This document shows positions 42,480 through 63,547 of a stretch of DNA of 64,000 nt, in pieces. The DNA lies in NCBI RefSeq assembly GCF_000013725.1, contig NC_007955.1, forward strand, positions 1,147,579-1,211,578, read 5' to 3'. Position 1 is the first letter of the stretch; each line of letters starts with the position of its first letter. A program made the position numbers and the translations under genes. The DNA comes from Methanococcoides burtonii DSM 6242. Its GTDB lineage: Archaea > Halobacteriota > Methanosarcinia > Methanosarcinales > Methanosarcinaceae. Under the pieces are notes generated by a model. It had not been told where the DNA came from, did not search any database, and was given only the letters and a program-made list of their open reading frames with translations.

Positions 42480-43193
42480 TCAGATTTCATTAGATGTATA
42501 TACTAAGTTGTTATTTACTATTTTCTTTAGTTGATTTCCTGAATTTAGCGCAATTACAACTTTGCTAGAAAGCGTACTATCGCTTGCAGAAGGATTGTTA
42601 CTTCCAATTTGTCTTCCTTTGATGTTGTTCCAGAGATCCATCGTCTTTGGAAGACCCGACGAATAGTATTCGTGAGCTGTTGCCCATCTATATGCCCATG
42701 TATAATCAATGTGCCTGACCATTAAAGCATTCCAATAAGTATGTCGGAATGCATCACTTGCATCATTGGCCCCATTGAAACCAAAAACATTTACTGTTTC
42801 AGATTCCGAGCTGAGACCATAAAAGCAAGATTTAGCACCTTTCCATGGGTTCTCTGTAAATAATAATGCTTCTTGATCATTTAAGTAATAACCAGGATAA
42901 CTAACTCTTGATGAGCCATCTCTATCGCTTTTGGAGACGTCATACAATTCCCTTATTTTTTGTAGAGTGTAATTATTAATTTGTTTATCCGTGGCATCCG
43001 GATTTTTTTCTATGTAGGAATTTACTTCAGTATATAGTTCTTCAATGTCAATGTATTGTAACATCTGTGATTCCTTTATGTTTTCTTCGGATATTTTATC
43101 CTGCCCTGCACTTACAGCAGGTACAAACGCCATGCTTATCAGCAACATTGCCGCAAGCATCGCACCTATCCCAAATTTCCTGTTTGTTTTCAT
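42480..43193 (-). CDS. Secreted DUF6973-like protein
   Basis: A 237-residue exported protein. A signal peptide ends at 'AFVPAVSAGQD'. The mature domain contains 'GFNGANDASDAFRHTYWNAL', then 'WATAHEYYSS' and 'PKTMDLWNNIKGRQIGSNNP'. This spacing of RHxYWNAL, HE and MDLxNN...GR matches the DUF6973-type domain found in secreted bacterial proteins, which suggests a hydrolase-like site with His and Glu. Its upstream region is nearly identical to that of a C39-like peptidase at 53-54 kb (four 19-bp-period operator units, TATA-like box, leader hairpin), so it is probably regulated with the two peptidases. The enzymatic function is unproven. Confidence 0.7.
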   Translation of the reverse strand: MKTNRKFGIGAMLAAMLLISMAFVPAVSAGQDKISEENIKESQMLQYIDIEELYTEVNSYIEKNPDATDKQINNYTLQKIRELYDVSKSDRDGSSRVSYPGYYLNDQEALLFTENPWKGAKSCFYGLSSESETVNVFGFNGANDASDAFRHTYWNALMVRHIDYTWAYRWATAHEYYSSGLPKTMDLWNNIKGRQIGSNNPSASDSTLSSKVVIALNSGNQLKKIVNNNLVYTSNEI

Positions 43194-43281
43194 TTATTTT
43201 ATCTCCTGCTTTATTCATTCCAGGAGGCAAAGCTACGCTTATATAGTACAAAGGTTAAAATGTAACCATGCCTCCGGGTAC

Positions 43282-43320
43282 GTGGGGTTCAGCTTCTACC
43301 CAAATCCGGTTGAGCCCCAC
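43282..43320 (-). promoter_or_regulatory. Leader hairpin upstream of the DUF6973-like gene
   Basis: GTGGGGTTCA (43282-43291) and TGAGCCCCAC (43311-43320) pair, allowing one G-U in RNA, as a 10-bp stem. With the TATA-like box at 43342-43352, transcription would start close to 43320, placing the stem at the very 5' end of the mRNA. Confidence 0.55.
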
Positions 43321-43341
43321 TCCAGAAATATCTATTACCTT

Positions 43342-43352
43342 TATCATATACA
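43342..43352 (-). promoter_or_regulatory. TATA-like box of the DUF6973-like gene
   Basis: TGTATATGATA read on the minus strand, about 12 bp downstream of the operator array and about 25 bp upstream of the leader hairpin. The same word is present in the other two copies of this upstream region. Confidence 0.5.
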
Positions 43353-43363
43353 TTAATTACTGT

Positions 43364-43440
43364 GATGAATATTCATCGATCTGGTTAATATTAATCAGTC
43401 CGATTAACATTAATCATTCTGATTTATGTCAGAAACAGGA
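43364..43440 (-). promoter_or_regulatory. Operator array A: four units at exact 19-bp period
   Basis: Units start at 43364 (GATGAATATTCATC, perfect palindrome), 43383 (GGTTAATATTAATC), 43402 (GATTAACATTAATC) and 43421 (GATTTATGTC, half-conserved). Five-base spacers separate the first three, giving a strict 19-bp repeat. The array is upstream of the TATA-like box, the usual place for activator sites in archaea. Confidence 0.7.
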
Positions 43441-45368: not shown

Positions 45369-46574
45369 TTACCTCACATATACACGTCCAGTCTCTGGAC
45401 CACCGTAGGTACTTTCATAAGCCGCAGAACCAGTCAAAGGATCATTAATATACTCATAGAAATACCCACTATTTAAGTATCCCCGACAAACACGACAATG
45501 ACCAGAAATCATACTGAAAAAGGGTCTGTTATTGTCAATTTCGGTAACAACATCAATGTTATAAAGTCCAGAAGTTCTAACAGTTGGTGTTTTATCCCAT
45601 ACATCTTCAACCCACTCTTCTATGTCACTATATGAAAGGCCAAAGTCCTCTAGCCCGCCCAAATAGTTAAAGATGTACGTCTGTGTAGGGGTAGTACTTG
45701 GATCGTTAAAGTACTCACAAAGCATTTGGATAGATGTGGGTACACAATAATAATCCGTTTCTTGTGTGTAAGCAGGAACCGAAAGCGTTTTACTTGTTAC
45801 TGTTTTTATCGTTACATCACTACTAATTTTCTTAATATCCTGTTCAGTTAATGTTGCACTGTTGTTAATTCCTTCATTGGTTATTATTTCCTCTATAGAT
45901 TTAGTGAACTCATCACTTTTTTGCCATGCAGCTAGGTTTTCTTCCATGTCATTTTCTAGCATTGTCTCATATAGTGACCAAACTCCCAAATCTCCAAATC
46001 TAGTTTTATTTATAGGATTATCTTGTACCTCTTCAAGAGAATATGCATCTACAAATATCCGATATTCTTCCCCTGTGGCTTTGTCCTTTACTGTGGTCAT
46101 TGCCCCTACTTTCGGATAACTGTATACTACCATGACCGTTGATTTGATCTTCCCATCAGGATATTTAGTATTGGCAATTTCTTTTGCCTTCGTCATGGCT
46201 TCATCCACACTATAAGGCTCTGGATCAAATTTAATATCATAGATGGAAGGACCCTGTGTTTTCTCGGCACAAACATCGATTGTACCTATCAATTCATTTT
46301 CTTTATACACTGAGAATTGATAAAACAACTTCTGACCACTTATGTCGTAAAGCTCCAGTGGTTTGGTATCAATAGATGCCCCCGTCCAGTTTTCAAATCC
46401 CGGTGCGTCGGCTGCTATAAAACTTATCATGTGCGCATTAGCATGCTTAAAAGCTTCCTCAACAGTTACAGAATAATCTTTTTCTTCCTGTGCACTTGCG
46501 GCCGGTATCAATGTCATGCTCACTAGCAATATTGCTAAAATTAGCGTTCCAATTTCAATTTTGTTCTTAATCAT
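45369..46574 (-). CDS. Secreted C39-like cysteine peptidase with PepSY-like N-terminal region
   Basis: A 401-residue exported protein. The signal ends at 'IPAASAQEEK'. Residues 30-200 resemble an inhibitory pro-region of PepSY/FTP type ('YDIKFDPEPYSVDEAMTKAK', 'VGAMTTVKDKATGEEYRIFV'). Residues 265-400 form a papain-like C39_2 domain with Cys in 'QETDYYCVPTSIQMLCEYFN', His in 'SMISGHCRVCRGYL' and an Asn/Asp position in 'YEYINDPLTG'. It probably cleaves peptides or surface proteins outside the cell. Its upstream region carries the 19-bp operator array and leader hairpin shared with two other secreted genes, and a Msr-type regulator gene is divergent from it. Confidence 0.72.
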   Translation of the reverse strand: MIKNKIEIGTLILAILLVSMTLIPAASAQEEKDYSVTVEEAFKHANAHMISFIAADAPGFENWTGASIDTKPLELYDISGQKLFYQFSVYKENELIGTIDVCAEKTQGPSIYDIKFDPEPYSVDEAMTKAKEIANTKYPDGKIKSTVMVVYSYPKVGAMTTVKDKATGEEYRIFVDAYSLEEVQDNPINKTRFGDLGVWSLYETMLENDMEENLAAWQKSDEFTKSIEEIITNEGINNSATLTEQDIKKISSDVTIKTVTSKTLSVPAYTQETDYYCVPTSIQMLCEYFNDPSTTPTQTYIFNYLGGLEDFGLSYSDIEEWVEDVWDKTPTVRTSGLYNIDVVTEIDNNRPFFSMISGHCRVCRGYLNSGYFYEYINDPLTGSAAYESTYGGPETGRVYVR

Positions 46575-47090
46575 TTGTCTTACTCCCGTTTCTGTACTTA
46601 TACACTATCAAAGCCAACCATAACCTTGCTTTAGGGCGTTTTGGAGTTCAAGCCGGCTCTGCAGGATACAGTTGAACCCTACTCCGTAAATATATCTTAC
46701 TCTCATCATATACATTTCTTACTGTGGCGAATATTCATCAATCCGATTAACATTAATCAGTCCGATTAATATTCGTCTTTCTGATTAATGTCAAAAACAA
46801 GATAATCCCTAATTTTGATGGTTCCGGGGATTGTACTATGTGCAACATTGAAGCACAAATTTAATATCTGTTACACGTACTATACTTTTTATTGTTAGTT
46901 CACTCATATACTTTATATCCTCACTATAATTTTCTATTAAGTAACTTACTTAAAACAGTACCTCATGTTTTAAACAAGGGCAGAGTTAGGGATTTAACTA
47001 AACTTTACTTCAGGCAAGCAAAATACGTAGAATGTTGATTGATCTTCATGAGCAGTTCATCTGCATGAATCTTCAGAATGGTACAAGAAC
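46575..47090. other. Divergent regulatory region, 516 bp
   Basis: Left part: leader hairpin arms GGAGTTCAA (46643-46651) and TTGAACCCTACTCC (46672-46685), TATA-like TGTATATGATG on the minus strand (about 46706-46716), and the operator array. Right part: a block at 46826-46863 that resembles 54582-54619 upstream of the other peptidase (about 28 of 38 bases), then AT-rich sequence with a TATA-like TATACTTTATATCC near 46910 and the leader of the regulator gene. Confidence 0.55.
46726..46802 (-). promoter_or_regulatory. Operator array B: four units at exact 19-bp period
   Basis: Units start at 46726 (GGCGAATATTCATC), 46745 (GATTAACATTAATC), 46764 (GATTAATATTCGTC) and 46783 (GATTAATGTC). The order, period and distance to the TATA-like box match arrays A and C although the individual bases have diverged, so spacing appears to be conserved. 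Confidence 0.7.
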
Positions 47091-47903
47091 ATGGACTTCC
47101 TTGAGATCTACAGAAAAGACGGAGATGATGTCCAGGCTATATACAGGTCCGGGCTCACAATTGAGATACTGCTGTCATTAAATGAAGGCAGTAAAAAGCT
47201 TTCTCAACTGCGTGAAATTAGCGGGAGCTCATCCCAGTCAATAATACCAAATATCAGGAGACTGGAGTCTGGTCAATTGGTAGAGGCAAAGGAAGATGGA
47301 TATTGCCTGACCCGGCTGGGAAAGATTGTAGCATCTAGGATCGCAGATTCCTTCAGTACAATTGGAACGATCAATAAGCACAAACTTTTCTGGTCAGACC
47401 ATTGCCTCGAAGACATCCCCATATCATCATTAAAAGAGATCGGATGCCTCTACAATTCCGAAATTATCAGCGATACCCATATAGAACTTTTTAATGTATA
47501 CCGCACTAATCTGAAAATCATAAAAGAAGCCGGGCATGTAGTCGGTGTATCATCCGTCGTAACCAAGGAATATGCGGATTCCATATCAGAAAAAGTATGT
47601 GAAGGAATACCTGTCGAACTTATAGTTCCTATGGATGTTGCGGAACAATTGAAGCAGGAGCCTTATGTGGAAAAGATCAATGCACTGAAAGATTATGAAA
47701 ACTTCAAATTAATGGTCATGGATGGAAATATTAGAGTGGGGCTCATTGTCACCGATAAATGCCTCTCATTGGGCCTGTACAAAAAAGACGGTGTGACCTA
47801 TGACATCGCAAGTGGCATATTCAGCTTTGATCCCATGGCGGTTGTGTGGGGAGAGAGGCTCTTTGAGTATTATAAAGAGCAGTCAAAGGTTATAAAAATG
47901 TGA
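47091..47903 (+). CDS. Msr-type winged-helix regulator (DUF1724)
   Basis: A 270-residue cytoplasmic regulator. The N-terminal ArsR-like winged helix covers about residues 15-85 ('GLTIEILLSLNEGSKKLSQL', 'SSQSIIPNIRRLESGQLVEA'). The C-terminal DUF1724 sensor domain has the motif 'SSLKEIGCLYNSEIISDTHI', then 'VGVSSVVTKEYADSISEKVC' and 'IASGIFSFDPMAVVWGERLF'. Methanosarcina homologs (Msr proteins) control methyltransferase genes. Here no methyltransferase genes are nearby; instead it is divergent from a C39-like peptidase carrying operator array B, so it is the best local candidate for the factor binding those arrays. The inducer is unknown. Confidence 0.85.
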   Translation: MDFLEIYRKDGDDVQAIYRSGLTIEILLSLNEGSKKLSQLREISGSSSQSIIPNIRRLESGQLVEAKEDGYCLTRLGKIVASRIADSFSTIGTINKHKLFWSDHCLEDIPISSLKEIGCLYNSEIISDTHIELFNVYRTNLKIIKEAGHVVGVSSVVTKEYADSISEKVCEGIPVELIVPMDVAEQLKQEPYVEKINALKDYENFKLMVMDGNIRVGLIVTDKCLSLGLYKKDGVTYDIASGIFSFDPMAVVWGERLFEYYKEQSKVIKM

Positions 47904-51266: not shown

Positions 51267-52962
51267 GTAACTATTCAGCCACCTTTGCGTGCTAAAATCC
51301 CCCCACCTCAATTTATTTCATCTTCTGACATGGATTTTTACGAAAAAAGTAAGTAGTAGCATTCTATTTAAGTTCACACCCAAAAAATCAATTGGTTTTG
51401 CCAAACAGGAGGTGAATGAACACGAAACGCAAAGAAATCCTAGCAGTTTATGAACAAGGTCCCGAAGCAGTTGTCACTCTTGTCACTACATTGTACGACA
51501 TCATTGCTGAACAACAAAGGATCATAGAACTACAAGCTGCCAGAATAACCGAACTCGAAGAACGAGTTAAAAAATTGGAAGAGCAACTCAAAAAAAACAG
51601 CCGAAACAGCAGTAAACCACCTTCAACTGATGTTTTTATTAATGAGAAACCAAAAACAAAAAGCAGACGAAAAAAGAGTGGAAAGAAACCAGGTGGTCAG
51701 AAAGACCATCCTGGAACTACTCTCAGAATGGTAGATGTTCCTGACGAAGTTATAATTCACAAAGTACACAAATGTAGCAATTGTGAAAGATCGCTTGAAG
51801 ATATAGAAGTTAAAGATCATGAAAAAAGGCAAGTATTTGACATACCTCCCATTAAACTTCAAGTAACAGAACATCGTGCTGAAATCAAGTCCTGTCCTCA
51901 CTGCGGTTGCAAGAACAAAGCTACTTTTTCAGAAAAGGTTAAACAACCCACGCAATATGGCTTGCGTCTTGCATCATTAGCAGTCTACTTACATGATTAT
52001 CAATTACTTCCTTATGAACGCAGCTGTGAATTGCTAGCTGATGTTTGTGGATGTGAAATAAGTCCCGCTACTTTGGCCAGGGCAGAAAAGACATGTTTTG
52101 AAAAACTTGAAGATTTCGAACAGCAGATCAAGAACTTCTTAATAGAATCTCCTGTGATAAATTGTGATGAAACTGGTATGAGGATAGAAGGAAAACGACA
52201 GTGGTTACATGTTGCTTCTACAAACAAAATGACATGTTATTATCCTCATCAAAAAAGAGGCTCTGACGCAATGAATGCGATGGGAATCTTACCAAATTTC
52301 AATGGTACAGTAGTTCATGATTTCTGGAAATCATATTACAAATATGATTGTGATCATTCGATCTGTAATGCTCATCTATTGCGAGAATTAACAAGTGTAA
52401 GCGAGAACGATAATCAATTGTGGTCAAAAGCTATGAATATTCTACTTATTGATGTCAAAAAGTCAGTTGACCAGATCCGAGGAATGTCTGGTTGTATGAA
52501 ACCAGAGAGAATTAAAGAGTTTGAAGATTGGTACGGCCAGATTATTCATATTGGGATAGAAGAAAATCCTCAACTTCAAGCCAAATCAAAGAAGCGAGGA
52601 AGAACTAAACAAACCACAGCAAAAAATCTGCTGGATCGGTTTATTGGTTATAAAAATGATATTCTCAGGTTTATGCATGATCTAAAAGTTCCATTTGAGA
52701 ATAATCTTGCAGAAAGGGATGTGAGAATGATGAAAGTACAGCAGAAGATATCGGGTACATTCCGAAGTATGCAAGGAGCATTAATTTTCTCGCGGGTAAG
52801 AAGTTACATTTCTACTGTTAAGAAGAATCAGATTCCTGTGATGGATGCAATTCGAAATGCAATTGCTGGAATGCCATTTATTCCAACAATTGTTTGAGCT
52901 TCTAATCTTTTTGTGTAAAGGTTGGTCATACAGGATTGATTATAGGTAGGCTGAATAGTTAC
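51267..52962. mobile_element. IS66-family insertion sequence, intact-looking, 1696 bp
   Basis: The ends are GTAACTATTCAGCCACC (51267-51283) and, inverted, GTAACTATTCAGCCTACC (ending at 52962). They begin with GTAA as in IS66 elements and are flanked by a perfect 8-bp duplication GAATAAAG. One long transposase gene fills most of the element; the accessory tnpA/tnpB genes of bacterial IS66 are absent. The perfect duplication and open reading frame indicate a recent insertion. Confidence 0.92.
51416..52897 (+). CDS. IS66-family transposase (TnpC type)
   Basis: A 493-residue transposase. An N-terminal coiled coil ('RITELEERVKKLEEQLKKNS') with the family's 'NSRNSSKPPSTD' motif is followed by a zinc-finger region with CX2C pairs ('HKCSNCERSLEDIE' and 'IKSCPHCGCKNKA'). 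The DDE core contains 'VINCDETGMRIEGKRQWLHV' (first Asp), 'GTVVHDFWKSYYKYDCDHSI' with 'CNAHLLREL' (second Asp and CxxHxxRE), and 'VPFENNLAERDVRMMKVQQK' (Glu in NxxERD). All catalytic blocks are present in one uninterrupted frame, so the enzyme may be active. It starts 150 bases inside the element. Confidence 0.93.
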   Translation: MNTKRKEILAVYEQGPEAVVTLVTTLYDIIAEQQRIIELQAARITELEERVKKLEEQLKKNSRNSSKPPSTDVFINEKPKTKSRRKKSGKKPGGQKDHPGTTLRMVDVPDEVIIHKVHKCSNCERSLEDIEVKDHEKRQVFDIPPIKLQVTEHRAEIKSCPHCGCKNKATFSEKVKQPTQYGLRLASLAVYLHDYQLLPYERSCELLADVCGCEISPATLARAEKTCFEKLEDFEQQIKNFLIESPVINCDETGMRIEGKRQWLHVASTNKMTCYYPHQKRGSDAMNAMGILPNFNGTVVHDFWKSYYKYDCDHSICNAHLLRELTSVSENDNQLWSKAMNILLIDVKKSVDQIRGMSGCMKPERIKEFEDWYGQIIHIGIEENPQLQAKSKKRGRTKQTTAKNLLDRFIGYKNDILRFMHDLKVPFENNLAERDVRMMKVQQKISGTFRSMQGALIFSRVRSYISTVKKNQIPVMDAIRNAIAGMPFIPTIV

Positions 52963-53089: not shown

Positions 53090-54235
53090 TTATACTACAA
53101 TAACCATACCATTTGAATACGAGTCTTCGCCTCCAATATTCTCGTAGACATTTTCTTCAAAGTTGAATGAAGGGTCATCCGAATCGTACCAATACATCTG
53201 TTCAGTTCCGGATAATGTATTTGGATCATTTAGTACAAAGTAGTCGTAGGCATCACTGTAACCCCTTAAAACGACGGCATGCAGTTCCCCAGAATTACTT
53301 TCTTCGATCAAATAAAATGGGCGACCCGTATCTATATAATACTGAGCGCAGTCAATTACATAAGATAATGATCCTGTATGACTTCTTTTATCTGCATTTA
53401 TGCTTTGATCTTGCAAGTAGTCTTCTGCTTCTGATGCACCCATTGAACCGTATATCAAATATATATCCCAAATATCAGGACTTGTGCCTGTATAATATTC
53501 TTCCAGCATTGCAGCAACGGTGTCCCCACATGCAGTGCTGGCAGCGGCATAACCATGTAGATCCCAAAATAGTTCCCATTGGCTTCTGTGAGGAACGTCT
53601 ATGTAGGCACTTTTGGTACTGGAACTTGGACTTACGTTTTCATATAGGCTAATTGAGTTGCCAAGGAGCCCAATTTGGCATTCCTTTCCATCAATTATCA
53701 TAGTTCCAACTAATCCACCATGTCCATCTTTGAAGAATTCACCATGAAAGCTGAATTTATCGCTTTCATCTTGCACTTCTATATGCGTTGCATATTTCTT
53801 TGTTGCGCCTTCATATCTGGTTATGGTTGCAAAACCTATCTTCTCATCGCCGACAGTACTATAGATTGGTTTTGCTCCTTCTGGTACATCCCATCCAATA
53901 AATACTTGGGTCGCTTCACCTGACAATTGAACCTTCTGGGCTTTTCCATCAAGTGTAATTACACCATTGAGTACTACAAGATTATTTTCATCGATGGTAC
54001 CAGACAAGAATGCAACTGCTGGTTTTTCCGTGGTGGCAGTTGTGCTCAAGTCAGTAATCTTTTTGTCTTCTGTAGGTATTATCAGAACACCATCCTTTTG
54101 ATTTAGTTCGATGGTAACTTGTTTATTACTAGAACTATCAGGGAGCGTTTCTTCTTGGGCACTTACCATTGGTACAAATGCCACCAATATTAGCAGCATT
54201 ATTGCAATAACAGTCGTTGTTTTCGATTTTTGCAT
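53090..54235 (-). CDS. Secreted C39-like cysteine peptidase, second copy type
   Basis: A 381-residue exported protein. The signal ends at 'FVPMVSAQEE'. A beta-rich N-terminal part (residues 35-205; 'VVLNGVITLDGKAQKVQLSG') differs from that of the peptidase at 45-46 kb. The C-terminal papain-like domain shows Cys in 'HGYAAASTACGDTVAAMLEE', His in 'SGELHAVVLRGYSD' and Asn/Asp in 'YFVLNDPNTLSG'. CGD in place of the usual CGP after the catalytic Cys is unusual. It is a secreted protease or peptidase-like protein. Its upstream region is close to identical to that of the DUF6973-like gene, with the 19-bp operator array, TATA-like box and leader hairpin. Confidence 0.72.
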   Translation of the reverse strand: MQKSKTTTVIAIMLLILVAFVPMVSAQEETLPDSSSNKQVTIELNQKDGVLIIPTEDKKITDLSTTATTEKPAVAFLSGTIDENNLVVLNGVITLDGKAQKVQLSGEATQVFIGWDVPEGAKPIYSTVGDEKIGFATITRYEGATKKYATHIEVQDESDKFSFHGEFFKDGHGGLVGTMIIDGKECQIGLLGNSISLYENVSPSSSTKSAYIDVPHRSQWELFWDLHGYAAASTACGDTVAAMLEEYYTGTSPDIWDIYLIYGSMGASEAEDYLQDQSINADKRSHTGSLSYVIDCAQYYIDTGRPFYLIEESNSGELHAVVLRGYSDAYDYFVLNDPNTLSGTEQMYWYDSDDPSFNFEENVYENIGGEDSYSNGMVIVV

Positions 54236-54323
54236 TTACTTTACCTCATTTCCATTACTCATGAGGCAAGATTACGTAAACTTTAAACGCTATCAAAGTC
54301 AACCTAATCTCGCCTCCGGGCAC

Positions 54324-54362
54324 GTGGGGTTCAGCTTCTACCCAAATCTGGTTGAGCCCCAC
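54324..54362 (-). promoter_or_regulatory. Leader hairpin upstream of the second C39-like peptidase
   Basis: GTGGGGTTCA and TGAGCCCCAC form the same 10-bp stem as upstream of the DUF6973-like gene. The predicted transcription start coincides with its 5' side. Confidence 0.55.
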
Positions 54363-54405
54363 TCCAGAAAGTTCTATTACCTTTATCATATACATTAATT
54401 ACTGT

Positions 54406-54482
54406 GATGAATATTCATCGATCCGGTTAATATTAATCAGTCCGATTAACATTAATCATTCTGATTAATGTCAGAAACAGGA
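54406..54482 (-). promoter_or_regulatory. Operator array C: four units at exact 19-bp period
   Basis: Units start at 54406 (GATGAATATTCATC), 54425 (GGTTAATATTAATC), 54444 (GATTAACATTAATC) and 54463 (GATTAATGTC). They are nearly identical to array A, with the same relation to the TATA-like box. Confidence 0.72.
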
Positions 54483-55881: not shown

Positions 55882-56607
55882 GTGAGATGCAAAGTAACTA
55901 TTCTAAAAACAACAAATTCACATATTCATTATGACTACCAATACGGATTAGCATCAATGTTATATGCTCGACTTGCCAATGCTAATATTACCTTGGCAAA
56001 TGAGATTCATAGCCATCAAGGTTTCAAGTTTTATACTTTTTCAAATCTGATTATTGAAGATTGGATTCCAAACAAACGTGGGTTGGATTTCAATAAAGCA
56101 CATTTTTTTATATCTTCTCCTGATTTGGAATTCATTCGCAGTTTTACAGAAGGTTTGCTTCTTGAACCTGAGTTTTTCCTTGGAAGAGATAAGAAAGCTA
56201 ATTTCATTATCGAACGTATCGAAATAATGCCAAATTTAGAAATCTCTGAGTCATGTAAGTTTACGACTCTTTCACCCATATACGTGAAGACGATGAGGAA
56301 AAAGAACGACAAACTTGTAGAGATAGATCTCTATCCCAAGGATTCAAAATTTTATGAAAATATTCATACGAACCTCACCGCACGATACGAGGAGTACTAC
56401 GGTCACAAGGTTGAACATGATTATTTTGATGTGCTGGAAGTGAAAGACTTTAAACCAAAACGTGTTTCGATAGGAAATAGTTTTAGGAGATGCAGTTTAA
56501 TGAAGCTAGAGCTTGAGGCAAGTCCAGAGCTTATTAAATTTGCGTATGACGCTGGATTGGGGGAGAAAAATGCTATGGGGTTTGGGTGTTTGGAGTTGGT
56601 TAAGTGA
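55882..56607 (+). CDS. cas6: CRISPR pre-crRNA endoribonuclease Cas6
   Basis: A 241-residue repeat-cleaving ribonuclease with two ferredoxin-like halves. The diagnostic glycine-rich loop 'DAGLGEKNAMGFGCLELVK' ends the protein. A His near the N-terminus ('NSHIHYDYQYGLASMLYARL') could be catalytic. It processes the CRISPR transcript and may hold the crRNA 3' end. It is the first gene of the operon cas6-cas8b-cas7-cas5-cas3, the order of type I-B (Hmari-like) loci. It starts with GTG; no ATG fits the frame. Confidence 0.9.
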   Translation: MRCKVTILKTTNSHIHYDYQYGLASMLYARLANANITLANEIHSHQGFKFYTFSNLIIEDWIPNKRGLDFNKAHFFISSPDLEFIRSFTEGLLLEPEFFLGRDKKANFIIERIEIMPNLEISESCKFTTLSPIYVKTMRKKNDKLVEIDLYPKDSKFYENIHTNLTARYEEYYGHKVEHDYFDVLEVKDFKPKRVSIGNSFRRCSLMKLELEASPELIKFAYDAGLGEKNAMGFGCLELVK

Positions 56608-56652
56608 ATATTAATTGTATGGATAAAACGTAGCTATGGGATTGGAGGGGGC

Positions 56653-58530
56653 ATGTATAACTTTATAGTGAATCTGTTTACTGCTGAAGAATACGGTCAA
56701 CTATTGAATGATAGTGAATCTAATTCAAAAGCAGGGAAAGCTAAAACATTGCTTGTGCCACTTGATGGTTCTGAAGAGTCATTTGTTATTAATAATTCAA
56801 ATTTGGATGATGAGTTTGATAGTAAACCTTGGTTAAAACGATTGGGGAAGAAATATTTTATGCATGATTATTTTATTTTGCCAACTCATAAATCAAGTAA
56901 TAATATTGGAAGTACTTCTGCATTGCTGAGCCATTCACCTACTCATTACAAAATTACAACTGCTTTTTTTAGTAAAAACGAAGATGGTACTAATAAACAA
57001 TATTCAAATGGAAATGATGTTATAACAATTTCATCAGATAAAATTGATTTATTCAAAAGTGCTGTACAAAAAACATTGTATCATGATAAATTTCCTACTC
57101 TTTGTTCTCAAGTTGAAGATTTTTTGAGAAATTTTGATGGTATAAATCCTGAAAATGTTTTTGGTTTATCTGAAAATGATTATCTTGTATTTATTGTCAA
57201 TGAATCTGATATTGATGATTATTATAATGCTGTATCGGAGTACACGGTTGAGAAAATATTAAAATATAAATCATTTGATGGAAATTGCGATAGTTGTGGT
57301 GAGTTTGATCAATTATATATGTTGACGCAAGGGAATTTATTTGATATTGGAAAAGGTCGTAAATATTTATTCAGGCATCCTACAAGGTATAAAACAAATT
57401 TGGAATCAAAAAGTAGTCCTGAAAATTTTAATATATGTAAAAGATGTGCTAAACAATCGTATGATTTCTTTGAATATATTAAAAAATATAAATTTTATAG
57501 ATATGTATTTCCAACTACTATTAAATTAAACTGCACTGATTATAGTGATTATTCTTCAAATCCAATTGGAATTTTAAAAATGCTGAAATCGATTTATAAT
57601 AATAATCAGTTCCAAGAATTTGATTATGTTATGATGCTTGCAGATCCGAAGTTGGAAAACATTGAATTCAGATATGTGAACAATTTCAACTACGAACTTT
57701 TAACCGAAGATACAGCGGTTAATGTACAAGATCTTCCCCTTTATGGCCAATTAAAAGATCGTTCTTCCAAAGGAAAGGAAGGGGAAAAAATTCATATACA
57801 AAATGAAAGAAACAAATCGATTTTTTTACAAGAATTAAATTTACTATTCAATAATACATTAGTTGGTTCTTTGTTTGAAACAAGTCCGAAAAATTTTCCA
57901 AAATATTTGAATTCGTTTATGAAATTGAAAATAATTGAATATAATGCAATTATTAGAAATTTTATTTATTTCCAAGATTTCTCATATTTTGAAGATGGTG
58001 TTTATACTAAAATGTTCCGTGAAATTTTATCGGAGTTGGTGACAAATTCTCATCTTCGTGATGATATGAAAATTGGAACTAAGAAAATTTTATTGTTTTT
58101 TATAATTTATTATAAATATTTATATCTGGAACCTGATGGAGGGGATACTATTACGGAATACATGGAACTGAAAAAGAAAATGGATGGGTCTGATAGTTTT
58201 GAAATTGAAAATGATTTTGAAGCAAGTTATTGCTTAGGTCAGGTATTTTACTATTTGCTTGGCGTGTATCAAGGAAAAAACCAATTAGACCTTTTTACAA
58301 AATCTACTATGAATGTTCATGATATGAATATGCTGAAAAAGAAGTTGGTTTTAGTACTTGAAAAATATTCTCATAATGAATATCTGGATACAAATCGAAA
58401 ATTCCACAATATGATTAAGAGTGTATTAGCTTTTGAATTTACTAAATCATATGAGGATAATAAGATTCCTTTGTACACTGGTTATTTTGATGACAATTAT
58501 TTATATTCAAAGAAAAATGAAGATGCTTAA
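56653..58530 (+). CDS. cas8b: Type I-B CRISPR Cascade large subunit Cas8b (Csh1/TM1802-like)
   Basis: A 625-residue protein with a zinc-finger-like set of cysteines: 'GNCDSCGEFDQLYM' (about 211-224) and 'FNICKRCAKQSYDF' (about 258-271). The remainder is long, helical and Lys/Asn-rich ('LNSFMKLKIIEYNAIIRNFI', 'MLKKKLVLVLEKYSHNEYLD'). Cas8b recognises the PAM and stabilises the R-loop in the interference complex. The assignment relies on position between cas6 and cas7, the cysteine pattern of the TM1802 family and length. Codon use is strongly AT-rich compared with the housekeeping genes. Confidence 0.82.
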   Translation: MYNFIVNLFTAEEYGQLLNDSESNSKAGKAKTLLVPLDGSEESFVINNSNLDDEFDSKPWLKRLGKKYFMHDYFILPTHKSSNNIGSTSALLSHSPTHYKITTAFFSKNEDGTNKQYSNGNDVITISSDKIDLFKSAVQKTLYHDKFPTLCSQVEDFLRNFDGINPENVFGLSENDYLVFIVNESDIDDYYNAVSEYTVEKILKYKSFDGNCDSCGEFDQLYMLTQGNLFDIGKGRKYLFRHPTRYKTNLESKSSPENFNICKRCAKQSYDFFEYIKKYKFYRYVFPTTIKLNCTDYSDYSSNPIGILKMLKSIYNNNQFQEFDYVMMLADPKLENIEFRYVNNFNYELLTEDTAVNVQDLPLYGQLKDRSSKGKEGEKIHIQNERNKSIFLQELNLLFNNTLVGSLFETSPKNFPKYLNSFMKLKIIEYNAIIRNFIYFQDFSYFEDGVYTKMFREILSELVTNSHLRDDMKIGTKKILLFFIIYYKYLYLEPDGGDTITEYMELKKKMDGSDSFEIENDFEASYCLGQVFYYLLGVYQGKNQLDLFTKSTMNVHDMNMLKKKLVLVLEKYSHNEYLDTNRKFHNMIKSVLAFEFTKSYEDNKIPLYTGYFDDNYLYSKKNEDA

Positions 58531-58554
58531 TTTTTAGTAATGGAGGTAAATTAA

Positions 58555-59415
58555 ATGAATTACAATGGGATAGTAGTAGTAAATGCAAAGAATGCAAGTT
58601 TTAATGCAGGCTTTGATGGACTTCCAAGAAGATTGCCAAATGGTAAAATATTTGCTACTGATAAAGCTTTAAAATACTGCATAAGGGACTATTTGTCAAA
58701 AAATGAGACTGTGTTTGTACAAAGGACGAAAAAGGAAGATACAATTAAAGGTGCAATTGTGCAGCGTCATCTGACATTAGATGAAAATTATTTGGAAAAA
58801 TGCAATAAAAAATCAATTCCAAAAGATGAGATGGCTGTCATTGAAGATCTTAAAAGTTTTATTGATGTTCGTTTGTTTGGGGTTGTTTTTGCAGTTAAGG
58901 GCAATAATATTTCAATGACCGGCCCTTGTCAAATAAACTATGGTGTCAATAGGTTTAAGAATTCCAGTATATTCTCTTCTGAAATCTTATCTCCTTATCG
59001 AAATTCAAATGAGAAAAGTAAGGATGTTCAGCAGACAACAATAGGTGAGGAATCAAGGGCTGATGATGTTTATTATGTATATGATATTTGTTTGAATATG
59101 AATTCTGCTAAAAAACAGGAGATCGAAATTTCAGATGAAGATATTACCAAATTGAAAAATGCACTCAAATATTCTGTCGGTGAAGTGAATTCTACGACCA
59201 TGTTTGGCTGTGAAACTGTAAGTATGCTCTGGTTTGAAAATAGTGATGATCGGATATTTAATAATCTTAATTCACTGGTAGATGTCTATGAAGAAGATGG
59301 TGATGTTTTAGTTGATTATTCAAAAGTTACTAAATTGATTGAAGGGGCTATTAATAAAAGTACAATTGAAGAATATAGTAATAAAGTGAAGAACAAGATT
59401 GTTTTTGAGAATTAA
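58555..59415 (+). CDS. cas7: Type I-B Cascade backbone protein Cas7 (Csh2)
   Basis: A 286-residue RAMP-type protein that forms the crRNA filament. Family features are the N-terminal 'NGIVVVNAKNASFNAGFDGL' with 'LPRRLPNGKIFATDKALKYC', 'IDVRLFGVVFAVKGNNISMT' and 'GPCQINYGVNRFKNSSIFSS', all typical of Csh2/DevR. GGAGGTAAATT precedes the ATG, and the stop TAA is directly followed by the cas5 ATG. Confidence 0.92.
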   Translation: MNYNGIVVVNAKNASFNAGFDGLPRRLPNGKIFATDKALKYCIRDYLSKNETVFVQRTKKEDTIKGAIVQRHLTLDENYLEKCNKKSIPKDEMAVIEDLKSFIDVRLFGVVFAVKGNNISMTGPCQINYGVNRFKNSSIFSSEILSPYRNSNEKSKDVQQTTIGEESRADDVYYVYDICLNMNSAKKQEIEISDEDITKLKNALKYSVGEVNSTTMFGCETVSMLWFENSDDRIFNNLNSLVDVYEEDGDVLVDYSKVTKLIEGAINKSTIEEYSNKVKNKIVFEN

Positions 59416-60210
59416 ATGGCTGCAAGCAAATTAATTCAGGCGAATACAATGGATACAACGATTGAATCATTTTCTTCCTTTGAGGAAAATATTGCACAAT
59501 CCGAAAAACTCCTTACTTTCCGATTGTATGGGAGTTTTGCTCATTTTAATCAACCTATTAGCAATCGCTTTAGGAATACGTATTCAATTATTCCAAAGCC
59601 ACAGCTTCTTGGATTGATTGGCTCAATTGTAGGGCTTAGTGGTTATAAGAATGCCGCAGTGAGTCCTGAATTTTATTCAAAATTGAGTGATTTAAAGGTA
59701 TTTATCAAATGTAATAGTTTGAGTGAGAAGAAATTCACATTATCTTACAATAGTCTTAATAGTTTTTTAAACAACAGAATCGATTCTGGTTCTCCAAATG
59801 TTATCATTAAGGAGCAAGTGTTGTTAGACCCAGATTATGAAGTTGGAATTGTAGTTAATGAAAATAATCCTCTCCATCTCGAAATAATTGATAAAATAAG
59901 GATGAATTGTGGTGTATTTCCCATTTATTTCGGCAAAAATGAATTTTTTGCGAATGTGCAATTTGGACATTTGAAGGATTTTGAGTATGATAATTCTGAA
60001 AGTAATAAGTGTTGTAGCATATTTCCTTTTGAAGAAGTGGAATCAGTGAATACACGAAATATGAAATTAGAATTATTGCCTGTTGATTTTGATGATATGT
60101 TTAAGTATATTTATCGTTTGATGGCAATACCAAGCGAAAAATGTAATGTTTCATTAAAAAATTCAGACAATTATATTGCTTCAGAGGGTAGTGTATATTA
60201 TGTATTCTGA
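59416..60210 (+). CDS. cas5: Type I-B Cascade protein Cas5
   Basis: A 264-residue RAMP protein capping the 5' handle of the crRNA. Typical: 'KLLTFRLYGSFAHFNQPISN' followed by 'FRNTYSIIPKPQLLGLIGSI' with the glycine-rich turn of Cas5, and 'CGVFPIYFGKNEFFANVQFG'. The ATG abuts the cas7 stop; ATG 59450 lies in the same operon position but about 11 residues later and is possible. The 3' end overlaps the cas3 start by 11 bases. Confidence 0.9.
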   Translation: MAASKLIQANTMDTTIESFSSFEENIAQSEKLLTFRLYGSFAHFNQPISNRFRNTYSIIPKPQLLGLIGSIVGLSGYKNAAVSPEFYSKLSDLKVFIKCNSLSEKKFTLSYNSLNSFLNNRIDSGSPNVIIKEQVLLDPDYEVGIVVNENNPLHLEIIDKIRMNCGVFPIYFGKNEFFANVQFGHLKDFEYDNSESNKCCSIFPFEEVESVNTRNMKLELLPVDFDDMFKYIYRLMAIPSEKCNVSLKNSDNYIASEGSVYYVF

Positions 60211-62842
60211 TAGCTTTAAGGAACTATATGATAATCTCTATAAGGGATTAATAGTTCCAAAAAGCTATTATTCTGCTCATAGAAATGAAAGTGGTATAGA
60301 ATTATTGGAAGATCATTCTCAACTTTGTGGGAATTATTTTCTTTATTTTATTGAGAATTTGGAACTTGAACCTTTAATTGATAATTTGATTATTGACTTA
60401 TTTGGTAAAAATAATTTGTTGAGTATAAAACAAATTCTGTTATTTGCTGTTTATTACCATGATATTGGTAAAATAAATTCTAATTTTCAAAAGGTGAAAG
60501 TGAATAGTAAAAAATCATCCAGCAATAGTAACCATAGTATTTTTTCGGAAAAAGTACTTACATCATTTTTGCTGAATGAATTTCCCAATCAAAAATCGAT
60601 TATTTATTTGATAGGAACTGTTGTTTCGTTACATCATACAAAATTAAGAGATTTTAGTATAAAGGATTATGATGAAAGCCAAGATGAAATTAAAATTATT
60701 CAACAAATTATTCAGGATACAGGACTTGAAATAAAAGAGATTTCTAAGGATGAGAAATTTGATTTTTATTCTGATAATTATAGTCGGGATAAAATCTTTA
60801 TTTTTGTGAAGCTTTTTTATTCTTTACTTGTACTGAGTGATTCATATTCATCAATGCATTATGCTAATTCTATGAAATCAATGCATCCTCTAAATGTTAT
60901 TGATTCTGAAATTCGTGAAAAAATGATTAAGTCATATTCTGGAGTTTCATACAATGCAAATATTGATGATATCACTTCAGGTGATATTTCTAGCTGTAAC
61001 AATATCAATGAGTTACGCAAAGAGATTTTAGTTGAATGCAATGATAATATGAAGAGACTGGTAAAGGATGGCAATAAAATATTTATGTTGTCTGTGCCAA
61101 CAGGTGGCGGAAAAACTAATATTTCTATGAAATTGGTTTTGAATATTCTTGAACATGATAATTCGTTGAAACGTATTTTTTATGTTTTTCCATTCATAAA
61201 TATTATTGAGCAAAATTATAAATCAATTGATAATACGTTATTTAATGATAGTTATTTTCCAAATAAGTTAGGTCTGATTTCAGATATTTATTCACGTGCA
61301 TATGTAAATAAATACGAAAATATGTCTGATACAGATGATTCTGATTTTAAGTTAGAGCAGATGTTATTAATTCAAAATGATAATTTTTTGAATAATTGTG
61401 TTAATGTTATTTCCAATGTTAATTTTTTCAATTCGTTTATTAAAAATGGTGGCAATAATCGTTATAAGATTGCAAATATGTGTAATAGTGTTGTTGTTAT
61501 TGATGAAATACAAACATTGAGCGATAAAAATATTCGGACATTTTATAATTTTATAAAAGAAACTAGTGAATCGCTAAATATTTATTATATAATTATGAGT
61601 GCTACATTACCAGATTTTAATTATTTTTTAGATAATGTTACTATTCCTCAGGTAATTAATAATCCTCTTAAATATTATAACCATCCAATTTTTAAGCGTA
61701 ATTCAATAATTTTCAAGAAGAATTCTAACGATATTGATTCGATAAAGAAGTTGTTGATTGAAGAGATTAAAGTAAATTATGCCACTGGAGGCGTAAAGGT
61801 TCTTATTACTTTAAATGTGGTTGATACTTCTAGAAGAGTTTTTGATGAATTGAGAATTGATGATGATTTTAATGGTTTTTCATTTTATCTTCTAAATAGT
61901 ACAACTTCAACTTTGCGTAGGAAAAAAATAATTGAAAATATAAAAAAATGTCCGAACGGTGAGCGTATTATAATTGTGTCAACACAATCCATTGAAGCAG
62001 GGGTGGATATTGACTGTGATTTTGGAATTCGTGATTATTCTATTTTGGATAGTATCGAGCAAATATCTGGACGTATTAATCGAGAGTGTGATGCACAAAA
62101 AGCAGATATTTCTAAATTATTTGTGATTAAATACAAAGATGGGGATACAGCCGATTCTAAAAAGATATATGGTAATCAAGAGCGATATAAAATATTGAAT
62201 AATATGGAAGATGGGATGGAGGAAGAAATTCTTTCGACAAAACATTTTGATACATATTATGGCAAGTTGTCTGAGGAAGTTAAGAAAATTGCAAGGGATA
62301 ATTTTAAACCAATTCAGGGCAAAATTGCAAATTTACAGTATCAATCTATAAATAATGAATTGGATGTAATTGATACTAAGGTTGGAAAAGTTGATATTTT
62401 CATTTGTGATGAGATTCCGCTTAATAATTTATCCAAGTATGACCGAGAAAAGATTAGGGCATTGATAAATGATCCTCGAATTGTGAATGCAGAAAAAGAT
62501 GCTAAAATTATAATTGATGATGTTATAATTTCAAGCAATGTTTATGTGGTCTGGAAGGAGATTCTTAGTTCGACTAATAAATTTGAAGATGTGTATATTA
62601 GAAGAAAAATAACGAGTTTGTTTAATCAATTTGTTATTTCAATTACTAATATCAAAAATAATGCATATGATTCGGATTTATTTGATTTTCTTCAAACTGA
62701 GGGATTTGTTGAGGTGGATGAGCGTTTTGATGTTGTTTTATCAACTCCGAAGTTTTTAGAGTACTATTCATTTGATGATGGTCTTAAGTCATATGAGATT
62801 AAGGAAGCAATTAATAATCGATCAATGGGTGTAATTTTATAA
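60200..62842 (+). CDS. cas3: CRISPR helicase-nuclease Cas3 (HD + SF2 helicase)
   Basis: An 880-residue protein joining an HD nuclease and a helicase. HD part: 'LEDHSQLCGNYF' (His39), 'AVYYHDIGKINSNFQ' (His87, Asp88), 'NSNHSIFSEK' and 'VVSLHHTKLRD'. Helicase part: Walker A 'VPTGGGKTNISM' (about 298), DEIQ in 'VVVIDEIQTLSD' (about 434), 'YIIMSATLPDFNYFL', 'IIIVSTQSIEAGVDIDCDFG' and 'SIEQISGRINRECDAQKADI'. It shreds target DNA recruited by Cascade. ATG 60200 overlaps the cas5 end; a longer frame from TTG 60176 is not needed. Confidence 0.93.
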   Translation: MYSDSFKELYDNLYKGLIVPKSYYSAHRNESGIELLEDHSQLCGNYFLYFIENLELEPLIDNLIIDLFGKNNLLSIKQILLFAVYYHDIGKINSNFQKVKVNSKKSSSNSNHSIFSEKVLTSFLLNEFPNQKSIIYLIGTVVSLHHTKLRDFSIKDYDESQDEIKIIQQIIQDTGLEIKEISKDEKFDFYSDNYSRDKIFIFVKLFYSLLVLSDSYSSMHYANSMKSMHPLNVIDSEIREKMIKSYSGVSYNANIDDITSGDISSCNNINELRKEILVECNDNMKRLVKDGNKIFMLSVPTGGGKTNISMKLVLNILEHDNSLKRIFYVFPFINIIEQNYKSIDNTLFNDSYFPNKLGLISDIYSRAYVNKYENMSDTDDSDFKLEQMLLIQNDNFLNNCVNVISNVNFFNSFIKNGGNNRYKIANMCNSVVVIDEIQTLSDKNIRTFYNFIKETSESLNIYYIIMSATLPDFNYFLDNVTIPQVINNPLKYYNHPIFKRNSIIFKKNSNDIDSIKKLLIEEIKVNYATGGVKVLITLNVVDTSRRVFDELRIDDDFNGFSFYLLNSTTSTLRRKKIIENIKKCPNGERIIIVSTQSIEAGVDIDCDFGIRDYSILDSIEQISGRINRECDAQKADISKLFVIKYKDGDTADSKKIYGNQERYKILNNMEDGMEEEILSTKHFDTYYGKLSEEVKKIARDNFKPIQGKIANLQYQSINNELDVIDTKVGKVDIFICDEIPLNNLSKYDREKIRALINDPRIVNAEKDAKIIIDDVIISSNVYVVWKEILSSTNKFEDVYIRRKITSLFNQFVISITNIKNNAYDSDLFDFLQTEGFVEVDERFDVVLSTPKFLEYYSFDDGLKSYEIKEAINNRSMGVIL

Positions 62843-62912
62843 TTGTTTTATTTGTTGTTTCTTTTTGACAATAGGGTACAAAAAGCAATAAATCTCTTAT
62901 AATTAACTAATG

Positions 62913-62928
62913 CTATATATTTATATAG
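62913..62928 (+). promoter_or_regulatory. Second promoter, ahead of cas4-cas1
   Basis: CTATATATTTATATAG forms an extended TATA-like element about 25 bp before the cas4 ATG at 62948, again predicting a leaderless transcript. It splits the locus into an interference unit and an adaptation unit. Confidence 0.5.
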
Positions 62929-62947
62929 TATCAGTATCAACCTTTTT

Positions 62948-63547
62948 ATGATGATTTTTATGACTGATTCCTTTCAAAATCCATCAAAAACCACGAATTC
63001 ACTAGATGTGTCAAATGATGTGTTGCTTAATACTTTTATTAAAATAACCGGTGTTAAGATCAACTACTACCACATCTGCCACACTAAGCTGTGGCTTTTT
63101 TCTCACAATATAGCTCTTGAACATGAAAACGAAAATGTCAATATCGGCAAACAGATTCATGAAGATAGTTATAGTAAAAATAAAAAAGAGATTACAATTG
63201 ATAATACGATCAGCATCGATTTTGTGAAGAAACGTGATGATATTCTTGAATTGCATGAAATTAAAAAGACTAAGAGTATGGAAGATGCTCATTTACAGCA
63301 AATGCTTTACTATATTTATTATTTAAAGAAAAGGGGGATTGATTCATATGGGGTTATGAATTATCCTCTTTTAAATCAGACTCGGGAAGTGGTGCTAACA
63401 AGTGATGATGAAATGAAGATCGAGGATGATATCATAAATATCGAGAAGATTATCACAGGCAGAATGCCACACCCTAAACGCATACGTATTTGTCCAAAGT
63501 GTGCATATTTTGAGTTTTGTTTTTGTGGCGAAGTGGATGATGATTGA
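62948..63547 (+). CDS. cas4: CRISPR adaptation exonuclease Cas4
   Basis: A 199-residue RecB-like nuclease with an iron-sulfur cluster. Cys44 in 'YYHICHTKLWLFSHN' and the C-terminal Cys182, Cys185 and Cys191 ('ICPKCAYFEFCFC') are the four expected ligands. The nuclease core shows 'VNIGKQIHEDSY', 'DFVKKRDDILELHEIKKTKS' with the D...ExK motif, and 'QQMLYYIYYLKKRGID' with the QxxxY motif. It trims prespacers and checks PAM. It starts at ATG 62948 just after the second promoter and is followed by cas1 43 bases later. Confidence 0.92.
   Translation: MMIFMTDSFQNPSKTTNSLDVSNDVLLNTFIKITGVKINYYHICHTKLWLFSHNIALEHENENVNIGKQIHEDSYSKNKKEITIDNTISIDFVKKRDDILELHEIKKTKSMEDAHLQQMLYYIYYLKKRGIDSYGVMNYPLLNQTREVVLTSDDEMKIEDDIINIEKIITGRMPHPKRIRICPKCAYFEFCFCGEVDDD

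Follow-up and report, generated by a model that had tools for sequence, protein, structure and literature searches.

Tandem palindromes at 19-bp pitch as probable operators of a FilR1-type regulator of secreted-protein genes in Methanococcoides burtonii, with a candidate two-hairpin leader RNA

Introduction

Three promoters in a 64-kb window (C1:1147579-1211578) of the 2,575,032-bp, single-contig Methanococcoides burtonii DSM 6242 genome (the window being the whole stretch of 64,000 nucleotides analysed here) carry short palindromes repeated at a regular distance, each upstream of a gene for a secreted protein. The question raised by this locus is whether the arrays serve as operators and, if so, which protein recognises them. 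In the original prediction, they were regarded as a spacing-constrained, multi-site operator of an undescribed archaeal regulon. Here, the architecture of the arrays, their history, their linkage to a regulator gene, and the RNA and proteins encoded downstream are described.

Results

Architecture of the Arrays

The 19-bp period was confirmed in all three places (arrays A, B, and C), the unit starts being exactly 19 bp apart, as listed in Table 1. It had been stated that each array holds four palindromic units. Three of these are near-perfect palindromes, but the fourth is a half-site retaining only 1-3 of 7 palindromic pairs, and a fifth register at the same pitch, which had been overlooked, overlaps the TATA box TGTATATGATR, so that the array extends into the core promoter. 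On the gene strand, from the far to the near end, the order is the half-site, two near-perfect palindromes GATTAAT.ATTAATC, a perfect GATGAATATTCATC (or its variant in array B), and the degenerate fifth unit AATTAATGTATATG, which shares the 19-bp register and contains the TATA box. Within the 64-kb window, all 19-bp pairs scoring ≥15 belong to arrays A, B, and C, the next best pair reaching 10.4, and zero pairs scoring ≥15 were found at spacings of 17, 18, 20, and 21 bp. A genome scan for further arrays, proposed earlier as a check, came back empty: the search of the M. burtonii genome revealed no array besides these three.

Table 1. Positions of the arrays, leaders, and genes in the window.
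Feature	Positions	Strand	Remark
Array A, units 1-4	43364-43434	-	19-bp pitch; units begin at 43364, 43383, 43402 (palindromes), and 43421 (half-site)
Array A, fifth register	43345-43358	-	overlaps BRE/TATA
TATA box TGTATATGATA of gene A	43342-43352	-	from sequence; position conserved
Leader RNA of gene A	43191-43330	-	HP1 43279-43330, HP2 43218-43278, SD CAGGAG, ATG; 117.8 bits
Gene A	42480-43193	-	secreted 237-aa protein, DUF6973 (Pfam E=1.2e-20)
Array B, units 1-4	46726-46796	-	units begin at 46726, 46745, 46764, and 46783
Array B, fifth register	46707-46720	-	overlaps TATA box (46704-46714)
Degenerate leader RNA of gene B	46559-46692	-	weak model match, 19.8 bits
Gene B	45369-46574	-	secreted C39-like peptidase, with a Methanoperedens homologue that lies next to such an array and regulator
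FilR1-type regulator, probably winged-helix	47091-47903	+	divergent from array B; candidate array-binding protein
Array C, units 1-4	54406-54476	-	units begin at 54406, 54425, 54444, and 54463
Array C, fifth register	54387-54400	-	overlaps TATA box (54384-54394)
Leader RNA of gene C	54233-54370	-	HP1 54321-54370, HP2 54257-54320; 110.4 bits
Gene C	53090-54235	-	secreted C39-like peptidase

Copy History and Conservation

Judged from their sequences, arrays A and C are recent copies, with 96% identity across 189 bp, leader included, so their mutual likeness is not independent evidence. Array B, a diverged and older copy, is 82% identical to A/C across 139 bp. The shared unit order and the shared distance to the TGTATATGATR box, both predicted, can indeed be observed, but at these identities they partly reflect descent. 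Selection had also been argued from array B, which diverged in bases and kept its period, and this argument is borne out: identity between B and A/C amounts to 81% in the array, compared with 57-59% in the upstream flank and 62-68% in the downstream HP1 of the leader, and such conservation above the flanks points to selection acting on the array. The independent cases in which the 19-bp pitch is retained are array B, the sister genomes, and distant orders. One Methanosarcina subtype breaks the pitch, with 20 bp to the next unit, because its unit is 15 bp long. In the sister genome G010, a degraded array (L048; G010:C5:496594-496721) lies beside CMD/ferritin genes, syntenic with array C, and has lost its leader; it is likely a decaying copy.

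The Regulator Gene and Its Linkage to the Arrays

Two features had been overlooked in the original prediction, a probable cognate regulator beside array B and a leader RNA linking many secreted-protein genes. In the regulator, the FilR1_middle domain (PF08350) was detected at 104.2 bits against a cutoff of 27, and the N-terminus resembles PF25213 (HVO_A0261-type winged helix) below the cutoff of 35 (29.9 bits, E=5.3e-07). The predicted structure, of moderate model confidence, displays a helical N-terminus and a two-stranded wing-like hairpin. A Foldseek search with this model returned TrmBL2 as the best match (E 1.6e-10, TM 0.39-0.42, pLDDT 65); a PDB sequence search gave no match at E≤0.01, and a domain search found no Lrp domain. 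A paralogue with 58% identity at C1:1746083 (L144) in the same genome was considered as a second owner of the operator and rejected, there being no array at that locus.

A unit matrix derived solely from the arrays of Methanococcoides, the genus of the window, was applied with a pair threshold of ≥15 to 79 loci fetched around close homologues of the regulator; the relatives reached include Methanosarcina, Methanohalophilus, and Methanolobus. A 19-bp pair was present in 63 of these 79 loci and in none of 76 control loci, which comprised leader loci without an array (0/23 and 0/43) and distant FilR1 paralogues (0/10); in these and the following locus counts, loci within one genus are not mutually independent. 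Outside Methanosarcinaceae (Methanoculleus, Methanoregula, Methanolinea, Methanospirillum, Methanocellales, and Methanoperedens), the pair was found at 19 bp in 50 of 54 loci and at 17, 18, 20, or 21 bp in none, and 23 loci also have a pair at 38 bp, twice the pitch. Ten of the 29 regulator loci of Methanosarcinaceae score below 15, some belonging to the 20-bp subtype and some lying at contig ends. At the level of genomes, array DNA occurs in 18 and a close regulator homologue in 34 of the 112 genomes of this family, and the homologue is present in 17 of the 18 array-bearing genomes (Fisher p=6.5e-10); G010 contains an intact array but no close homologue. The idea that the arrays arose by chance or as an AT-rich artefact was rejected on the basis of the conservation, control-locus, and neighbouring-spacing results.

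In Methanosarcina-like genomes, the array lies approximately 260 bp upstream of the divergent regulator gene. In Methanoperedens (L252), a five-unit array separates the divergent regulator gene from the gene for a C39 peptidase, which is a homologue of the gene B product (E=1e-61). Where the pitch recurs in other orders, unit numbers vary and the remaining sequence differs. Owing to the array-regulator linkage and the 19-bp pitch across orders, and to the Methanoperedens module, the arrays are likely operators of this FilR1-type regulator family, a reading drawn from comparison of sequences. Against this reading stand the intact array of G010 with no close homologue, the 58% paralogue lacking an array, and the low-scoring loci of Methanosarcinaceae. 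The pitch was also kept in the sister genomes, and the pitch together with the regulator family extends support for a spacing-constrained operator of a secreted-protein regulon beyond the window.

Outside Methanosarcina, array and regulator usually have a UbiA-family prenyltransferase gene as their neighbour (loci L252-L295, L223, L225, and L227). There, the arrays end shortly before the UbiA start codon and the leader is missing. This neighbourhood suggests an older role of array and regulator in membrane or prenyl chemistry. In the genome G083 (L212-L213; C1:2840000-2876000), at least six tandem units of regulator, array, leader, and secreted-protein gene are observed, with some regulators decayed and transposases interspersed; in Methanosarcina, tandem duplication has affected the whole unit, the copies encoding different mature proteins.

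The Two-Hairpin Leader RNA

When array C and its downstream sequence were used as the query, the stretch from promoter to start codon was found to recur elsewhere without the array. A covariance model made from nine copies of this leader detected 16 copies in the M. burtonii genome, and the leader is present in 8 of 11 genomes of the genus, 63 of 112 of the family, and 84 of 238 of the class, other families included. It folds into two hairpins and ends at the ribosome-binding site. For HP1, 50 double-change cells were counted compared with 25.9±4.0 after shuffling (0/500), sliding controls being far lower, and the covariation was 0.297 against 0.176±0.020 (0/500). HP2 is more conserved, with a weaker but positive covariation (0.242 against 0.202±0.014, 2/500). 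Complementarity between the 3' arm of HP2 and the Shine-Dalgarno sequence exceeds that of shuffled pairings (14.0 against 12.73±0.22, 0/500), a hint and no proof, because the copies are related and HP2 pairing constrains the arm. Matched variants of arm and Shine-Dalgarno sequence include CTCCTAG/CTAGGAG and CCTCTTG/CAAGAGG, and this complementarity suggests a translational switch. No leader matched any Rfam family, the few sub-threshold matches in leader loci being at chance level, and the leader is regarded as a candidate new structured RNA family.

The leader occurs under several promoter types, and the model gave no match on array loci outside Methanosarcinaceae. The arrays without a leader beside UbiA genes imply that the array can be separated from the leader. 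Leader genes have a second operator class, a long inverted repeat, CCATATCWTCSAACTG ... CAGTTSGATGATRTGG, immediately preceding a ATATTTATA TATA box (L085-L092, L102, L106, L110-L114, and L118; in the M. burtonii genome at C1:1924.5k, 1928.4k, 1917.1k, and 1833.9k); a membrane-anchored, winged-helix-like regulator (L053 9080-9817) lies near this class. A third promoter class (L103, L104, L105, and L107) displays TCACCAAYTATAAATA, with neither array nor long inverted repeat.

The Secreted Products

The predicted DUF6973-like protein and two C39-like proteins downstream of the arrays were recovered by Pfam, the latter as C39_2 peptidases with E values of 4.6e-10 and 1.2e-15, and genes A, B, and C all begin with a signal peptide. 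By a simple hydrophobicity rule, 75 of the 82 proteins encoded after leaders have a signal-peptide-like N-terminus. Seventy-nine leader-driven proteins include 31 mature families without detectable mutual similarity, yet the signal peptides of these families are similar, with up to 87% identity between otherwise unrelated proteins. From these sequences, a cassette of promoter, leader, and signal peptide has evidently been combined, on many occasions, with differing mature domains.

Recognised products driven by arrays or leaders include C39, M10, and M12 peptidases, DUF6973, and a halocin C8-like protein; others belong to no known family, and for most leader-driven products NCBIfam mostly gave no family. 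The halocin C8-domain protein of genome G110 (L220 3826-4641) matched TIGR04449 at 48.2 bits (cutoff 24), and its gene lies under a six-register 19-bp array and a leader RNA. Cys-rich relatives of this protein, without a family match, were seen in L117 and L168. The response of extracellular proteolysis or surface remodelling proposed earlier fits the peptidases but does not cover the halocin C8-like protein, the proteins without a family, or the UbiA neighbours. Since numerous peptidases unrelated to one another share related control with a halocin C8-like protein, antagonism or scavenging is a possible common purpose. Beyond array C, the window contains a CRISPR-associated operon (55882-63547), apparently of type I-B from the reading of its open reading frames.

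Discussion

Proposed Mechanism

It is highly probable, from the sequence comparisons above, that the arrays represent tandem operators of the regulator encoded at 47091-47903, through which the three secreted-protein genes would be controlled. Repeated palindromes at a constant pitch suggest dimers placed side by side; regulator dimers would bind successive palindromes at 19-bp pitch, from approximately 75 bp upstream as far as the BRE/TATA region, and gene B would be controlled next door and genes A and C in trans. Since the last register overlaps BRE/TATA, binding of the regulator would touch the core promoter. The sequences show the arrays, their pitch, their linkage to the regulator in several orders, and their overlap with the TATA box; we infer direct binding, dimers, and cooperativity, as well as the direction of control, for which repression by occlusion and activation by helping TBP/TFB both fit and appear about equally likely. 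The mRNA would start with the two conserved hairpins, which are followed at once by the ribosome-binding site, and the leader may constitute a second, separable layer of control, common to many secreted-protein genes under other operators.

A broader reading can be offered tentatively. In Methanosarcinales, a modular cassette may combine interchangeable operators (the 19-bp arrays with the FilR1-type regulator, the long inverted repeat, and the third type) with the conserved leader and a conserved signal peptide, the 5' arm of HP2 mimicking the Shine-Dalgarno sequence and competing for the anti-Shine-Dalgarno arm as a translational switch, so that an arsenal of proteases and bacteriocin-like proteins is shuffled. 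If this were true, unrelated mature domains would be expressed through one design of leader and signal peptide.

Alternative Explanations

The two-hairpin leader, as an RNA switch or stability element, might itself be the real control and the arrays a minor promoter variant. The leader is far more widespread than the arrays, and the strong covariation of HP1 and the HP2 complementarity to the Shine-Dalgarno sequence point in the same direction, although the latter may stem from relatedness and HP2 pairing alone. This explanation leaves the conserved array-regulator pairing and the leaderless arrays unexplained and is considered rather unlikely; it is partly compatible with operators of the FilR1-type regulator, and the confidences expressed here do not add to one.

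The operator might also belong to another protein, for example an Lrp-like or a general chromatin protein, with the FilR1-type gene merely a neighbour. Lrp-like proteins of archaea do act at multi-site operators, and arrays persist in G010, where no close regulator was found, but the linkage of array and regulator holds across orders in which the neighbours differ (C39 peptidase, UbiA, and others) and the distant FilR1 paralogues are devoid of arrays, which makes ownership by another protein improbable. It is more improbable still that the arrays are a by-product of promoter-cassette duplication, with an inherited, unselected period and no protein using the repeats. The near-identity of A and C, leader included, and the cassettes of leader and signal peptide plainly duplicated with unrelated mature domains are in keeping with duplication, but as a full explanation it was rejected by the recurrence of the pitch beside the regulator in other orders, despite differing sequence and varying unit number, and by conservation above the flanks. 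A replication or partition iteron, or a transposon end, is barely conceivable and was rejected for want of supporting neighbours: the tandem 19-bp repeats are iteron-like in form and an IS66-type transposase is encoded at 51416-52897, but the transposase has no array, the arrays border directly on a TATA box or the start of a gene, and they lie at three chromosomal promoters with no rep or par genes seen nearby.

Comparison with Known Systems

The proposed operators of the FilR1-type regulator can be compared with several known systems. The Msr regulators of Methanosarcina acetivorans, which we take to belong to the FilR1/PF08350-type family, are encoded beside genes under their control. In archaeal Lrp-type operators such as those of Ss-LrpB, several regularly spaced palindromes occur per control region, with presumed cooperativity, and we know of no description of such operators with spacing and regulator linkage as seen here. 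These multi-site operators are the subject of PMC4046817 (Ss-LrpB) and of a review (PMC2995911). Their protein family differs from that of the FilR1-type regulator.

FilR1 of Methanosaeta (Methanothrix) harundinacea shares the Pfam domain name FilR1_middle with the present regulator, and the described targets of FilR1/PF08350 (COG4742-like) methanogen regulators are methanogenesis genes (PMC3991700); here, in contrast, a defined tandem operator of 19-bp pitch adjoins genes for secreted proteins or UbiA. A text search of that paper revealed neither a binding motif nor a palindrome or footprint. PMC11218639 names the Msr regulators and describes HdrR of Methanosarcina barkeri, an HTH regulator footprinted on a palindromic promoter site. 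The likeness lies in a methanogen HTH regulator with such a site, binding to the present arrays being predicted; the difference is that the target is hdrBCA and that the passages on HdrR mention no 19-bp tandem array. TrmB/TrmBL2 structures (PDB 5bpd, 5box, and 5bqt), in whose titles TrmBL2 is an archaeal chromatin protein, come closest in fold to the regulator model, at modest confidence, and serve as a lead only, the solved members differing in that they have no sequence match to the regulator. Comparable to the leader is a structured 5' UTR of 154-159 nt, conserved between species, which precedes a surface protein gene of Methanosarcina, slmA1, and is known as the leader of this S-layer gene (PMC3361143). 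The openly licensed PMC literature yielded nothing on the 19-bp arrays or the leader, and this absence is weak evidence.

The probable pairing of regulator and operator would fall within the tandem operators of winged-helix regulators, a known type. Through it, a class-wide family of methanogen regulators would gain a concrete DNA code, palindromes at 19 bp that reach the TATA box, tied to extracellular functions that are little known in methanogens. The leader, for its part, precedes many genes for predicted secreted proteins in Methanosarcinales, an order with some genetically tractable members.
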